From contig SEEV01000035.1 in assembly GCA_004211695.1 (NCBI GenBank), forward strand, positions 1 to 64,000: 64,000 nucleotides of DNA, in the 5' to 3' direction. Origin of the DNA: Rhodococcus sp. (in: high G+C Gram-positive bacteria). GTDB taxonomy: Bacteria > Actinomycetota > Actinomycetes > Mycobacteriales > Mycobacteriaceae. The notes under the pieces are model-generated. The model ran no database searches and had not been told where the DNA came from. It worked only from the letters and a program-made list of their open reading frames with translations. Below, in pieces: positions 5,181 through 57,631 of the stretch (its first letter is position 1; every line of letters begins with the position of its first letter). A program made the translations under genes and the position numbers.

Positions 5181-5254
5181 ATGCTGGCCTGTGCAGCTGG
5201 TTCGCCCGGCCAGGTCGTGAGGAGCCCCGAAGACCGGACCGGGCGTCGAAGCAC

Positions 5255-5430
5255 GCCGCACCCTTCTGGGTTCGGGGTGTGAGAGGGAACCCGGTGAGAA
5301 TCCGGGACTGTCCCGCAGCGGTGAGTGGGAACGACCGCCGTCATCATGCACTGGGCACCAGCCTGGGAAGCGACGGCCACTAGGTCCGGTGGATTGCGCC
5401 GGGTGCCCGCGAGTCCGAAGACCTGCCGAC
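5255..5430 (+). ncRNA. cobalamin (AdoCbl) riboswitch of metE
   Basis: The segment carries the conserved cobalamin-riboswitch blocks in order: GAGAGGGAACCCGGTGAGAA, then GGACTGTCCCGCAGCGGTGA, the GCACTGG...CCTGGGAAGCGACGGCC stretch, and the terminal AGTCCGAAGACCTGCC. A small GC hairpin (CGGGCAC/GTGCCCG, about 5436-5451) follows before metE. In actinobacteria this element represses the B12-independent methionine synthase when B12 is available, and the location here fits exactly. The outer boundaries are approximate. Confidence 0.92.
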
Positions 5431-5572
5431 TGTGTCGGGCACGCCGTGCCCGTCGGTCCACCGCCTCGGGGAATGGGCGTGTAGATCTCCACGTGCCGTG
5501 GGCTGCCCTGCGGCCGAGAGGTGTACCCGTTTGCCGGTGGTGGCCCTCCACGCAACAGCACATGGAGACACC

Positions 5573-29012: not shown

Positions 29013-30416
29013 TCACCAGGGGATCTGCCCCAGGACCACACCGATCACCAGCATCGACAGCGACACCAGCGCCGCGCGCCACAGCACCTTCTTGTGGTGG
29101 TCCGCCAGCGGAACACCGGCGAGGGTCACGAGCAGGAGGATGGCCGGGACGAGGGGGCTCTGCATGTGGAACGTCTGGCCGGTGATGGAGGCTCGGGCCA
29201 TCTCGACCGGCTCGATGCCGTACGTGGCCGCCGTCTCGGCGAGCACGGGCATCACGCCGAAGTAGAAGGCGTCGTTGCTCATGAAGAACGTGAACGGCAG
29301 GCTCAGGATGCCGGTGATGACGGCCAGGTGCGGTCCGAGCGCGGACGGGATGATCTCGAGCAGCCACTGCGCCATGGCCTCGACCATTCCGGTGCCCTGG
29401 AACACGCCGGTGAGAACGGCTGCGGCGAACACCATCGCGACCACGGAGACGATGCTCGACGAGTGGCGTGTGATCGCTTCCTGCTGCTCCTTGACCCGCG
29501 GGAAGTTCACCGTCAGCGCGATGGAGGCGGCCACCATGAACAGCACCGGAATCGGCAGCACGTCCATCACGAGGACGACGAGCAGCGCCACGGTCACGAG
29601 CGCGTTGAACCACAACAGCTTCGGTCGCAGCGTGGGCCGCTGGGGGTCGAGCCCGTCGACGAAGCCCTGGCCGTCGTCCGAGCCGGCGGCGCCGGAACCG
29701 CCGCCCGTGCGGGGTGTGTCACCGTTGCCGCCGGACTTGGCGCGGCTGCGGCCGGAGCCGGCCGAGACGAGGAGGCGCTCGTCGGTGAGCACGAGTGTGC
29801 CGATGCGGCGGCGTTCGCTGTAGCCGAGCTGGATGGCGAACAGCAACACCACGACCAGTCCGACCACGAGTGACGGGATCATCGGGACGAACACGTCGGA
29901 CGGTGAGATATTCAGCGCCGCGGCCGCCCGGACCGTCGGGCCGCCCCACGGAACGATGTTCATCGCGCCGTTCGCGAGGCCGGCGACCACCGTGAGCACC
30001 ACGGGGCTGACCTTCAGCTTCATGTACAGCGGCAGCAGTGCGGACGTCACGATGATGAACGTCGTCGACCCGTCACCGTCCAGCGACACCACCATCGCGA
30101 GCACCGCGGTACCTACCACGAGCCGCATCGGGTCGTTGCGCACGAGCCGGAGGATGAGTTTCACCAGCGGATCGAACAGGCCGACGTCGATCATGATCCC
30201 GAAGAAGATGATCGCGAAGAACAGCAACGCGGCGGTCGGCGCGAGCGACTTGATCCCGTCGGTGATCATGTCGCCGATGCCGAGACCCGCCCCGGCCGCG
30301 ATACCGAATGCGACCGGGACGGCGATCAACCCGACCACGGGAGTGGCCCGTTTGGACATGATCAAGAACATGAACACGGCCACCATCAGAAAGCCGAGTG
30401 CTACCAGCATTGCCAC
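29013..30416 (-). CDS. CitMHS-family carboxylate transporter
   Basis: This 467-residue permease belongs to the metal-citrate:H+ symporter family (Bacillus CitM/CitH). About eleven to twelve hydrophobic segments frame the conserved SLDGDGSTTFIIVTSALLPLY (about 110-130) and NGAMNIVPWGGPTVRAA (about 148-164). FFMSNDAFYFGVMPVLAETA is near 385. A Gly/Ser-rich cytoplasmic loop lies at 225-260. GTG 30416 follows AGGAG; ATG 30410 is an alternative. It is last in an operon headed by a TPP riboswitch, so the imported carboxylate may be linked to thiamine metabolism (inference). Confidence 0.88.
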   Translation of the reverse strand: MAMLVALGFLMVAVFMFLIMSKRATPVVGLIAVPVAFGIAAGAGLGIGDMITDGIKSLAPTAALLFFAIIFFGIMIDVGLFDPLVKLILRLVRNDPMRLVVGTAVLAMVVSLDGDGSTTFIIVTSALLPLYMKLKVSPVVLTVVAGLANGAMNIVPWGGPTVRAAAALNISPSDVFVPMIPSLVVGLVVVLLFAIQLGYSERRRIGTLVLTDERLLVSAGSGRSRAKSGGNGDTPRTGGGSGAAGSDDGQGFVDGLDPQRPTLRPKLLWFNALVTVALLVVLVMDVLPIPVLFMVAASIALTVNFPRVKEQQEAITRHSSSIVSVVAMVFAAAVLTGVFQGTGMVEAMAQWLLEIIPSALGPHLAVITGILSLPFTFFMSNDAFYFGVMPVLAETAATYGIEPVEMARASITGQTFHMQSPLVPAILLLVTLAGVPLADHHKKVLWRAALVSLSMLVIGVVLGQIPW

Positions 30417-30427
30417 TCCTCGCCTCG

Positions 30428-31632
30428 TCGACGAACTCGCCGAGGCTGCTCGGGTAGAGCGGCGGCATCAGATTGAACCCGTCGGCCCCGCCGCGGCGGA
30501 ACCACACCTCGATCTCGTCGGCGATCGACTCCGGGGTGCCGATCATGGTGCAGTGCCCGCCCCCGGCCGCCAGAGTGCCGAGCAGCGACCGCACGGTGGG
30601 GCGGTCCTTCTCGATGATCCGCAGGATGGTGTCGTACCGGCCCTGCGGTCCGGTGAACTCCGACAGCGGCGGCAACGCCGGAACGGGTGCGTCCAATTCC
30701 CAGTCGCTGCAGTCCTGCTGGACGAACATCGACAGCTGTGCCAGCGACTGCTCGACGGGCAGGAGCGCGTCGAGTTCCGCCTTCTTGCGGTGCGCCTCCT
30801 CGGTGGTCGATCCCACGTACGTCACGAGACCGGGCATCACCGTCACCGCGTCGGCGTCACGGCCGGCAGCGCGGATGCGCCGCTTCACGTCCTCGTAGTA
30901 ACTCTGCGCGGCCGTGAGGTCGTAGGCGACGGCGTAGATGCCCTCGGCGCAGCGGGCGGCCAGGTCACGGCCCTGATCGGACGCGCCCGCCTGGAACAGC
31001 ACCGGACGACCCTGCGGTGAGCGCGGCACGTTCAGCGGACCGTCCACGAGGAAGTGCTTGCCCCGATGCGCGACCGGCTTCACCTTGGCCGGATCCGCGA
31101 AGATGCCCTCCCGGTCGAGCACGAGCGCGTCCGGCTCCCACGAATCCCACAGAGCGAGTGCCACATCGACGAATTCCGCGGCACGCGAATAGCGATCGTC
31201 GTGCGGCGGCATCTCCTCGAGTCCGTGATTGCGCGCCTCGGCGTCGAACATGGACGTCACCACGTTCCAGCCGGCACGGCCGCCGCTGATGTGGTCGAGC
31301 GACGCCAGCATCCGGGCGGCGTGGAACGGCGTGTAGAACGTGGTGGACACCGTCGTCACCAGTCCGACCCGCTGCGTCGCCCGCGCCATCGCGGACAGCG
31401 CGGTGAGTGGTTCGAGGAACCACATGCCTCCGGACGCGGGGTCGCGCACCGAATGTCCGTCGGCGAAGAACACCGCGTCGAGGCAGCCCCGCTCCGCGGT
31501 CTGCGCCAACTCCTCGTAGTAGGAGATGTCGCAGAGTCGCTCCACCTGGGACGACGGGTGCCGCCACGCGGCGCCGTGGTGCCCGCAGCTGAAGAGGAAC
31601 GCGTTGAAGTGCAGTTGCCGGGTGCCGGTCAT
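30428..31632 (-). pseudogene. LLM flavin monooxygenase (NtaA/DmoA type), 3' truncated
   Basis: About 401 residues of an FMNH2-dependent luciferase-like monooxygenase of the nitrilotriacetate/dimethylsulfide/desulfurisation group. Typical blocks are present: HFNAFLFSCGHH, SGGRAGWNVVTSMFDAEARNHG, HRGKHFLVDGPLN, RPVLFQAGASDQGRDLAA and GFNLMPPLYPSSLGEFVDE. The family continues about 45 residues further. Here, right after FVDE, the DNA becomes the ribosome-binding site and start of the transporter gene, and the frame runs 118 codons out of phase through it. A 3' deletion is the simplest reading. Start ATG 31632 lies one base past the SDR stop. Confidence 0.65.
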
Positions 31633-31633
31633 G

Positions 31634-32398
31634 TCAGTCCTTGACCAGTCCGCCGTCGACGACAAGGTTCTGTCCGGTCACCGCACGCGACCACGGGGAC
31701 GCGAAGAACAGCACCGCGTCGGCGAACTCGTCCGGGGTGGTGACCCGCTGCAGCGGGGTGCTCGCCGCGATGAGGTCGAACACCTCGTCGGGGGTGGCGG
31801 CGCTGGCGTCGGTGGTGCGGAGCAACCCACCCGAGACCATGTTGACGGTGATGCCGTCGGGTCCGAGGTCGGCGGCGAGGGTGCGGGTCAGCGACAGCGC
31901 CGCGGCCTTGGCGGCCGTGTAGTCGTGGTATGGGACGACGGGGTTCTGGAACAGGTTGGTCCCGATGTTCACGATCCGGCCGAACCCGAGCGCACGCATG
32001 CCCGGCAACGCGGCCTGCGTGGTGTGCAGAGTCGCCTTCACGCTGCCGCGCAACTGCGAGTCGAAAGCGTCCCACGTGATGACGTCCGCCTTGTCCCGGG
32101 CGTCGCCGTTGAACGAGAAGTCGGCGAGGGCATTGTTGATCACCGTGGTCACCGGTGATCCGAAGTGCTCCTCGGCGGCAGCGAACAGCGTCGCCACCTC
32201 CGCGGCATCGGTGACATCGGCACGGAGGGCGACCGCGCGATCCGGGCCGAGTGACGCCGCGAGTTCCTCCGCCGCATCCCGGCTGTTCCGGTAGTTCACG
32301 ATCACCCGCGCGTTCTGCGCCGCGAACGACCGCACGATGGCGGCGCCCAGGCCGCGCCCACCGCCGGTCACCAGGACGATCTGCTTGTCGAGCTGCAT
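31634..32398 (-). CDS. short-chain dehydrogenase under TPP riboswitch
   Basis: This 254-residue classical SDR resembles FabG-type reductases. TGGGRGLGAAIV binds the cofactor, and HDYTAAKAAALSLTRTLA contains the Tyr-x-x-x-Lys. The usual NNAG is NNALADFSF, and LLRTTDASAATPDE lies in the substrate loop. ATG 32398 has GGAAGGTGA eight bases upstream. It is the first gene after a TPP riboswitch and directly precedes the LLM monooxygenase. From memory, SDRs of this type (sometimes called oarX) have been noted in thiamine regulons, but the substrate is not known to me. Confidence 0.85.
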   Translation of the reverse strand: MQLDKQIVLVTGGGRGLGAAIVRSFAAQNARVIVNYRNSRDAAEELAASLGPDRAVALRADVTDAAEVATLFAAAEEHFGSPVTTVINNALADFSFNGDARDKADVITWDAFDSQLRGSVKATLHTTQAALPGMRALGFGRIVNIGTNLFQNPVVPYHDYTAAKAAALSLTRTLAADLGPDGITVNMVSGGLLRTTDASAATPDEVFDLIAASTPLQRVTTPDEFADAVLFFASPWSRAVTGQNLVVDGGLVKD

Positions 32399-32460
32399 TG
32401 CTGTCACCTTCCGTTCGGTCGGCGACGAGACATCGGATGAGCGCATACGGCCGTCTCCGC

Positions 32461-32546
32461 GACATCCCTTCGCCGGAATTACCCAGTTCAGGTTCGACGG
32501 GTGTGTTCTCAGCCGACCGGATCGTCTCCGGGCAGCACCCCGTGTC
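32461..32546 (-). ncRNA. TPP riboswitch (THI element)
   Basis: On the minus strand the conserved THI parts occur in order: P1 strand GACACGGGGTGC, then GGCTGAGAACACACCCG, the TCGAACCTGAACTGGGTAAT block, and GCGAAGGGATGTC closing P1. It ends 62 bases before the SDR start codon. TPP binding should switch off the SDR-LLM-transporter operon by blocking translation or by terminating transcription. Confidence 0.93.
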
Positions 32547-32587
32547 ACTCGCGAACAGTGTAAGCCCAGTCACCACCTTCCCGTTCT

Positions 32588-56674: not shown

Positions 56675-57631
56675 ATGGCGAGGGATCTGACCCAACTCGA
56701 ACTGCTGCAGGAGTTGTCGCCGGTTGCAGAAGAGAACGTCAACCGCCACCTCTCCATGGCCAAGGAATGGCATCCCCACGACTATGTTCCGTGGGACGAA
56801 GGACGCAACTTCGCCGCGATGGGCGGCATCGATTGGGACCCCGAGCAGTCGCAGCTCGACGAGGTCGCCAAGGCCGCGATGATCACCAACCTCCTCACCG
56901 AGGACAACCTGCCGTCGTACCACCGCGAGATCGCAGAGAACTTCTCGCAGGACGGCGCGTGGGGAACCTGGGTCGGCCGCTGGACCGCCGAGGAGAACCG
57001 TCACGGCATCGTGATGCGCGATTACCTCGTCGTGACCCGCGCCGTCGACCCCGTCCAGCTCGAGCGCTTCCGCATGGAGCACATGACGAACGGCTTCGCC
57101 TCGCCTGCCGACGTCGACGCCGGCTTCCTCCACTCCGTCGCGTACGTCACGTTCCAGGAACTCGCCACCCGCGTCAGCCACCGCAACACCGGTAAGGCGT
57201 GCAAGGAACCGATCGCCGACAAGATGCTGCAGCGCATCGCCGCCGACGAGAACCTGCACATGATCTTCTACCGCAACATGTGCGGCGCGGCCCTCGACCT
57301 CGCGCCCGACCAGGCGCTCGAGGCCATCAACATGATCGTCCAGAACTTCCAGATGCCCGGCGCCGGCATGCCGAACTTCCGGCGCAACGGCGTGCTCATG
57401 GCCAAGCACGGCATCTACGACCTCCGCCAGCACCTCGAAGAGGTCGTGATGCCCGTTCTGCGCAAGTGGAACGTCTTCGAGCGGAACGACTTCACCGCCC
57501 GCGGCGAAGAGATCCGCGAGAGCCTCGGCAAGTTCCTCGAGAACCTCGAGGGCCAGGCCACCAAGTTCGAGGAGCAGCGCGACCGCATGCTGGCCCGTGA
57601 GGCCAAGAAGCGCGAGCAGAAGGCTTCGTAG
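56675..57631 (+). CDS. desA: acyl-ACP desaturase (DesA type)
   Basis: This 318-residue soluble di-iron enzyme introduces a double bond into acyl-ACP. The two iron motifs are RWTAEENRHGIVMRDYL (about 103-119) and RIAADENLHMIFYRN (about 188-202). Mycobacterial DesA1/DesA2 share this layout. ATG 56675 has GGAGG nine bases upstream. The C-terminus is a charged helix. It stands alone between its promoter region and a strong terminator. Confidence 0.93.
   Translation: MARDLTQLELLQELSPVAEENVNRHLSMAKEWHPHDYVPWDEGRNFAAMGGIDWDPEQSQLDEVAKAAMITNLLTEDNLPSYHREIAENFSQDGAWGTWVGRWTAEENRHGIVMRDYLVVTRAVDPVQLERFRMEHMTNGFASPADVDAGFLHSVAYVTFQELATRVSHRNTGKACKEPIADKMLQRIAADENLHMIFYRNMCGAALDLAPDQALEAINMIVQNFQMPGAGMPNFRRNGVLMAKHGIYDLRQHLEEVVMPVLRKWNVFERNDFTARGEEIRESLGKFLENLEGQATKFEEQRDRMLAREAKKREQKAS

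Follow-up and report, generated by a model that had tools for sequence, protein, structure and literature searches.

The 64,000-nucleotide stretch analyzed here (contig SEEV01000035.1 of Rhodococcus sp. assembly GCA_004211695.1; hereafter the window) carries a thiamine pyrophosphate (TPP) riboswitch, or THI element, followed on the same strand by genes coding for a short-chain dehydrogenase/reductase (SDR), a luciferase-like flavin monooxygenase (LLM) and a CitMHS-family transporter (Table 1). The original prediction, made from the letters of the window alone, placed a complete THI element ahead of these three genes, and this description holds: the aptamer covers the RF00059 model in full (1-105 of 105; E-value of 3.2e-9 over the whole window and 2e-11 over the local stretch) and belongs to a total of seven Rfam matches that the window contains. 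Comparison with other genomes makes us very sure that the riboswitch, the SDR and the LLM form a genuine conserved module. By the same sequence comparison, the transporter is not part of it.

Table 1. Features of the riboswitch locus (coordinates are positions in the window)
Feature	Position	Strand	Basis or remark
TPP riboswitch aptamer (RF00059)	32448..32552	-	Rfam covariance model, 59.8 bits (gathering threshold 54.3)
Predicted hairpin GTCGCC/GGTGAC over the SDR ribosome-binding site	32403..32426	-	Minimum free energy folding
SDR, 254 aa (NCBIfam NF006393, named 3-oxoacyl-ACP reductase)	31634..32398	-	Family profiles
LLM flavin monooxygenase of the NtaA/DmoA family, without its final 28 residues	30423..31632	-	TIGR03860; comparison with locus L038
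Deletion junction, 194 bp relative to L038 (genome G004)	30422..30423		Removes the LLM end, its stop codon and most of the gap before CitMHS
CitMHS-family transporter	29013..30416	-	TIGR00784, 483.7 bits (cut-off 259.7)

The aptamer is separated from the SDR start codon by 49 nucleotides in which runs of T never exceed one, and a predicted hairpin covers the ribosome-binding site of the SDR. We therefore infer that the riboswitch acts by translational OFF control in Rhodococcus. Comparable hairpins made of different letters were found in the leaders of Arthrobacter and Cryobacterium and were absent from some other taxa tested. The source genome, a draft of 8.47 Mb in 1043 contigs that is 74% complete, contains a second TPP element on another contig (C741), at the start of a ThiC gene whose product is 96% identical to ThiC of a relative.

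The SDR scores as a member of the classical SDR family (PF13561, 177.8 bits against a cut-off of 27) and falls within NF006393/PRK08642 (466.6 bits, cut-off of 292). The name of that family, 3-oxoacyl-acyl carrier protein (ACP) reductase, is one that the thiamine context speaks against. In a set of 95 SDR sequences, including some from near-identical genomes, the catalytic Tyr and Lys are kept throughout, and the position of the classical catalytic Ser is occupied by Thr in 91 sequences and by Ser in 4; Thr may substitute for Ser in this SDR. No match for the SDR was found in the PDB at 1e-38, the sole threshold used. The 405-aa LLM stretch of the window scores 505.6 bits with the NtaA/DmoA family model TIGR03860 (cut-off of 279.7) and aligns up to profile position 399 of 422, leaving an incomplete domain. 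Intact versions exist elsewhere, as had been anticipated: the LLM of a relative reaches 551.2 bits and covers profile positions 1-422.

Conservation of the TPP-SDR-LLM module

A search of 28 genomes of the genus with RF00059 gave a match in all 28, over the cut-off in 27, and the succession of TPP element, SDR and LLM was found in 21 of the 28, window included. In the 20 others of these 21, an SDR 74-99% identical to that of the window lies behind a TPP element and is followed by an LLM in every case. Five of the remaining seven genomes have no SDR at any listed TPP locus; the other two (G021 and G023) each have one TPP locus that lay outside the genus comparison.

A broader view was obtained by scanning contigs with the SDR. 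The best 80 of at least 550 confirmed loci were named, a sample of close homologues that partly draws on the genomes already covered in the genus comparison and in which contig ends truncate the flanks of 17 loci. TPP elements were first sought with a regular expression, but this recovered 11 of 31 known loci, and a covariance model constructed for this analysis took its place; its consensus structure has 11 pairs, so that it acts mostly on sequence, and 87 of the 95 loci (L072-L166) were scored with it. The TPP calls of L087-L089 come from the regular expression, at positions that match genus loci scored by Rfam. Neighbourhood genes were delimited with a hand-made caller that misplaced them in some loci (e.g. 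L088), and clusters of neighbours were checked by family search on single representatives.

The initial count over the 80 named loci was 33 with a TPP element and an adjacent LLM, 2 with LLM only, 14 with TPP only and 31 with neither. After L092, in which the element overlaps the annotated start, was reassigned by hand to the TPP group, the count became 33/2/15/30, and adjacency of the LLM goes with an upstream TPP element (Fisher p = 1.1e-8). Counting L105, where the LLM is split, as an LLM locus gives 34/2/14/30; a TPP element is thus found at 48 of the 80 named SDR loci and the LLM at 34 of these 48, as expected of members of a THI regulon. The two LLM loci lacking a detected element are L115, for which 489 bp of upstream sequence were available, and L159, whose sole element lies on the other strand. 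On the SDR tree, the TPP and no-TPP labels change 7 times, against a minimum of 17 across 300 shuffles. Control of the SDR and LLM by TPP, part of the original prediction, is supported by gene context in the genus and in other taxa.

In four loci (L105, L127, L132 and L154) the TPP element heads an operon and not the SDR itself. Family search identified the genes between element and SDR in L105 as hydroxyethylthiazole kinase, thiamine monophosphate (TMP) synthase and HMP-phosphate kinase (HMP, hydroxymethylpyrimidine); by clustering, the other three loci match this TPP-thiM-thiE-(thiD) operon, L132 being without thiD.

Record titles place sampled loci in Arthrobacter, Cryobacterium, Dietzia, Williamsia, Alcaligenaceae and Oceanimonas, and altogether the module was found in other Actinomycetota, in beta-, gamma- and alphaproteobacteria and on a Mesobacillus plasmid, the sole basis for its occurrence in Bacillota. 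One locus recorded as Sporosarcina (L126), with 66.5% G+C over 16.8 kb, is possibly mislabelled and was not taken as Bacillota. Among 31 plasmid records with an LLM match, 8 regions were opened. SDR and LLM lie behind a TPP element in Rhodococcus sp. DMU1, two Pseudochrobactrum and Mesobacillus foraminis, the last with an SDR of 50% and an LLM of 52% identity, a TPP element of 82 bits and 36% G+C. No such set was found at the plasmid LLMs of Streptomyces nigrescens, Shinella, Mesorhizobium and Bradyrhizobium (48-51% identity). These four, together with nine LLMs (47-52%) from one actinobacterial family, served as 13 outgroup LLMs, and a TPP element or SDR match was found within a few kb of none of them. 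In an unrooted FastTree phylogeny, the 42 LLMs of the set, which include those of L115 and L159, are split from the 13 outgroup LLMs with a support of 1.0; when the tree was printed rerooted, this branch additionally carried a value of 0.37 on its opposite side. Because of this split and of the absence of TPP elements and SDRs at the outgroup loci, the TPP-linked LLM is, on this sample, a separate subfamily.

Two kinds of candidate transporters adjoin the pair. Twelve loci (L124, L130, L136, L140, L143, L148, L150, L151, L153, L159, L162 and L166), all of which also have the LLM, carry on the opposite strand a gene of about 480 codons that has a TPP element to itself; this gene is directly divergent in some and separated by one further gene in others, and the one member tested by family search is an SSS-family sodium:solute symporter. 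In Cryobacterium loci L113 and L135, genes read from their sequence as an ATP-binding cassette (ABC) set with a THI5-like binding protein, together with a TPP element, adjoin the LLM. The symporter gene and the ABC set are likelier candidates than CitMHS for the carrier of the pathway.

Thiamine biosynthesis genes in genomes carrying the module

We searched 40 whole genomes for thiamine genes, 28 with the SDR-LLM pair (out of 36 named pair loci; L088-L091, L110, L114, L117 and L153 were left out) and 12 with an SDR and no adjacent LLM. Two of the latter, L128 and L147, have no TPP element; the SDR of L128 lies near carA and dapB. Presence was called at E-values of 1e-3 for ThiC, 1e-80 for ThiG, 1e-15 for ThiM and 1e-12 for TenA. 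A TMP synthase match was obtained in all 40 genomes. Among the 28 pair genomes, ThiG is present in 27 (in two pieces in G689), ThiC is missing in 12, with one more showing a fragment only, and ThiM is missing in 15. Eight combine absence of ThiC and ThiM with presence of ThiG, and three of these (L130, L143 and L162, the last a metagenome-assembled genome) also lack TenA.

Judging from their gene content, these eight bacteria should neither be able to use hydroxyethylthiazole through the known kinase nor require it, and should need the pyrimidine. Because ThiG is kept in 27 of the pair genomes while ThiC is missing in 12 and ThiM in 15, we are moderately confident that the pair serves the pyrimidine half of thiamine. 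This reasoning works by excluding the thiazole alcohol and makes no appeal to enrichment, and genes can be absent from draft assemblies by chance. An enrichment of the ThiC-minus, ThiG-plus pattern among pair carriers was considered and rejected, the same pattern being common in a control set of 150 genomes from another actinobacterial family (that of G391). Absence of ThiC is thus no mark of the pair, since its loss with retention of ThiG is common in that family. On these counts (ThiC in 76 of 150, ThiG in 148 of 150), about half of the control family should itself need pyrimidine or another route.

Proposed function of the pair

At 1e-20 the LLM matches 12 sequences of solved structure. The nearest is YtnJ/MoxC (E-value of 1.2e-98), which we take to be the protein called CmoJ, followed by nitrilotriacetate monooxygenase and DszA; further matches are dimethyl-sulfide and ethylenediaminetetraacetate (EDTA) monooxygenases, hexachlorobenzene dehalogenase, an alkane monooxygenase and riboflavin lyase (6e-65). 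CmoJ, a homologue of YxeK and DszA, is reported to convert an N-acetyl-S-alkyl-cysteine sulfoxide to an aldehyde, probably via an N5-peroxyflavin (PMC10863075), and YxeK to oxygenate N-acetyl-S-(2-succino)cysteine, which then falls apart into oxaloacetate and N-acetylcysteine (PMC9706529). The simplest reading of the pair is that the LLM produces an aldehyde and the neighbouring SDR reduces it, HMP being the pyrimidine aldehyde plus two electrons.

We thus propose, with a probability of about one in three, that SDR and LLM constitute a TPP-repressed two-enzyme salvage module for the HMP half of thiamine that operates via a pyrimidine aldehyde. When TPP is low, the riboswitch would permit translation of the SDR and of the LLM directly behind it. 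Drawing its reduced flavin from another source in the cell, the LLM would oxygenate the methylene carbon of a pyrimidinylmethyl compound. Thiaminase I and sulfite yield pyrimidinylmethyl adducts of thiamine, and the substrate could be a thioether, amine or sulfonate arising from such cleavage. The compound would be split to 4-amino-2-methylpyrimidine-5-carbaldehyde, which the SDR would reduce with NADPH to HMP for use by ThiD and ThiE. The odds that this is the exact reaction of the pair are likewise about one in three. The original prediction of a role in thiamine salvage, distinct from a known step of synthesis, is supported. A wider formulation, in which a TPP-marked LLM subfamily found in at least three phyla and its SDR would provide a new oxygen- and flavin-dependent salvage of vitamin B1, yielding HMP via the aldehyde from broken thiamine without ThiC and TenA, is offered tentatively. 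If true, a flavin monooxygenase would join the enzymes of vitamin B1 metabolism, and the supply of pyrimidine in some bacteria lacking ThiC and TenA would be explained.

Several observations weigh against an aldehyde-based pyrimidine salvage. The SDR is not linked to a TPP element everywhere: 30 of the 80 named homologues (70-78% identical) have neither TPP element nor LLM, 20 of these being Xanthomonadaceae/Lysobacteraceae by title (the 30 include L093, L094, L098, L101, L103, L109 and L128), and 14-15 loci have TPP element and SDR without an adjacent LLM. Both ThiC and ThiG are present in 15 of the 28 pair genomes, and the 150 control genomes have ThiC in 76 and ThiG in 148; LLM matches at 1e-120 occur in 48 of these, 3 at 69-72% identity and the others at 48-53%. 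The SDR also adjoins thiM, a thiazole gene. On the chemical side, an alkane monooxygenase stands among the PDB matches, so a carbonyl is not the sole outcome in the LLM family; CmoJ is reported to require a sulfoxide supplied by a second enzyme (PMC10863075); and no gene for a flavin reductase stood out in the module, although no search was aimed at one.

Presence of the SDR inside TPP-thiM-thiE-(thiD) operons, together with the cleavage of C-S bonds by relatives of the LLM, would suit salvage of the thiazole half, with the LLM opening or trimming a modified thiazole and the SDR producing hydroxyethylthiazole for ThiM. We find this doubtful because ThiM is unmatched in 15 of the 28 pair genomes and ThiG is matched in 27, with the reservation that drafts can miss genes. 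The pair might instead act on whole thiamine or on TPP-like derivatives (oxidised, alkylated or antivitamin forms), repairing or removing them at times when functional TPP is scarce, an idea that suits the 15 pair genomes holding both ThiC and ThiG and explains the location beside thiazole, pyrimidine and TPP-controlled transporter genes. A purely detoxifying enzyme would not need to be shut off by TPP, however, and no phosphate-specific partner gene was noticed; we regard this reading as possible, if rather unlikely. That the pair is an oxygen-dependent route to HMP replacing ThiC is suggested by the 12 pair genomes without a ThiC match but is highly improbable: 15 pair genomes also have ThiC, and of the 150 control genomes, 74 lack ThiC at 1e-40 and 3 have an LLM at 69-72% identity, one of them without ThiC.

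A 194-bp deletion in the window strain

Compared with locus L038, whose LLM and CitMHS are 98.5% and 98.9% identical to those of the window, the window lacks 194 bp that in L038 encode the last 28 residues of the LLM (VIPVLQKRGLFRAQYETETLRDHLRGHR), its stop codon and most of the intergenic region. This bears out the statement that the LLM lacks its C-terminus and supports the suggestion of a recent loss. Past the junction, where two CGAGG copies meet and are both retained, the LLM frame runs out of register into CitMHS up to a stop at 30073, for a total of 519 aa. The window LLM is probably inactive, because the lost residues belong to the family model. The LLM step would then be dead in the window strain and CitMHS, without an upstream region of its own, would now be the last gene of the riboswitch transcript: one small deletion would have broken an enzyme and put an unrelated transporter behind a riboswitch. 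Elsewhere, the LLM is split in L105 (Arthrobacter sp. H14) and both split and without its start in L142 (Citricoccus zhacaiensis), which may reflect recurrent loss or assembly error. Genome G629 holds two TPP-SDR-LLM units (L170 and L171), the LLM of one being cut after about 140 residues.

The truncation in the window could itself be an assembly error in a strain whose operon is normal. The draft assembly is in 1043 contigs at 74% completeness, and the junction joins the two CGAGG copies; against this stand a clean junction, an LLM frame that stays open as far as the junction, and open reading frames for both the SDR and CitMHS. An error is accordingly not the explanation that we favor, and we consider it unlikely but well worth bearing in mind. 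The original prediction also combined SDR, LLM and CitMHS into one TPP-controlled pathway importing and oxidising a carboxylated compound, as the single riboswitch ahead of all three genes in the window strain would suggest. The SDR and LLM of this set are indeed kept together behind TPP elements elsewhere, but CitMHS stands behind the LLM in 10 of 18 genus loci (those that contain the SDR and were retrieved together with flanking sequence) and, among the 80 named loci, in 4, all of them Rhodococcus. Moreover, a gap between LLM and CitMHS is present in all 10 relatives with CitMHS, the direct join of three genes occurring in the window strain alone, and each of these 10 gaps holds one 16-mer of the form TGTNNTCGCGATCACA, which resembles a CRP/GlxR site. 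No CRP-like 16-mer lies between LLM and CitMHS in the window, and the two genes abut there because the deletion removed most of the gap, this site included. CitMHS thus does not behave as a member of the THI regulon, and uptake of a carboxylated compound is unsupported since the transporter stands outside the conserved module; we give the three-gene pathway next to no credence.

Neighbouring features

The divergent upstream neighbours of the locus, an OhrR-like MarR gene (scoring under the cut-off of its model) and ohr, have no visible tie to thiamine. Elsewhere in the window, a cobalamin riboswitch (5239-5444, + strand, 83.2 bits) precedes an 800-aa open reading frame that, named from its sequence alone, reads as the cobalamin-independent methionine synthase MetE. 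A match to ASdes, a tuberculosis (TB) small RNA in Rfam, lies at 56993-57060 on the - strand (80.4 bits), here in Rhodococcus.

Comparison with known systems

TPP-controlled salvage is known; what would be new here is an enzyme pair of unassigned role, a novelty that is not proven. A TPP-linked pair of SDR and LLM was not found in the open-licence literature searched, a scope outside which most subscription papers fall, and the words monooxygenase, dehydrogenase and oxidoreductase do not occur in the main text of the 2013 TPP-regulon survey (PMC3766115).

CmoJ/YtnJ and YxeK share the LLM family with the enzyme described here, and CmoJ and YxeK are reported to cleave a C-S bond oxidatively and leave a carbonyl. 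They differ in serving cysteine salvage with an acetyltransferase and a deacetylase, whereas the context here is an SDR and a TPP riboswitch. RcaE, a riboflavin monooxygenase/lyase and an LLM of the same family, is reported to act on a vitamin, cleaving the ribityl chain off riboflavin oxidatively (PMC12746152). Its role is catabolic, unlike the salvage proposed here. RcaE is not known to be associated with a TPP element or an SDR.

Recovery of the pyrimidine under TPP control is a feature that the proposed module would share with TenA and with thiXYZ, the latter a predicted HMP transporter (PMC545781). The proposed route would differ from TenA in its chemistry. TenA is hydrolytic and works without oxygen or flavin. 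An SDR resembling 3-oxoacyl-ACP reductases, oarX, was reportedly noted behind THI elements by Rodionov et al. in 2002 with no assigned role, and to our knowledge no LLM partner was mentioned there. The likeness is one of name, 3-oxoacyl-ACP reductase being the NCBIfam name of the window SDR. With the LLM, the SDR of the thiamine regulon gains a frequent enzyme partner and a candidate reaction that can be tested.

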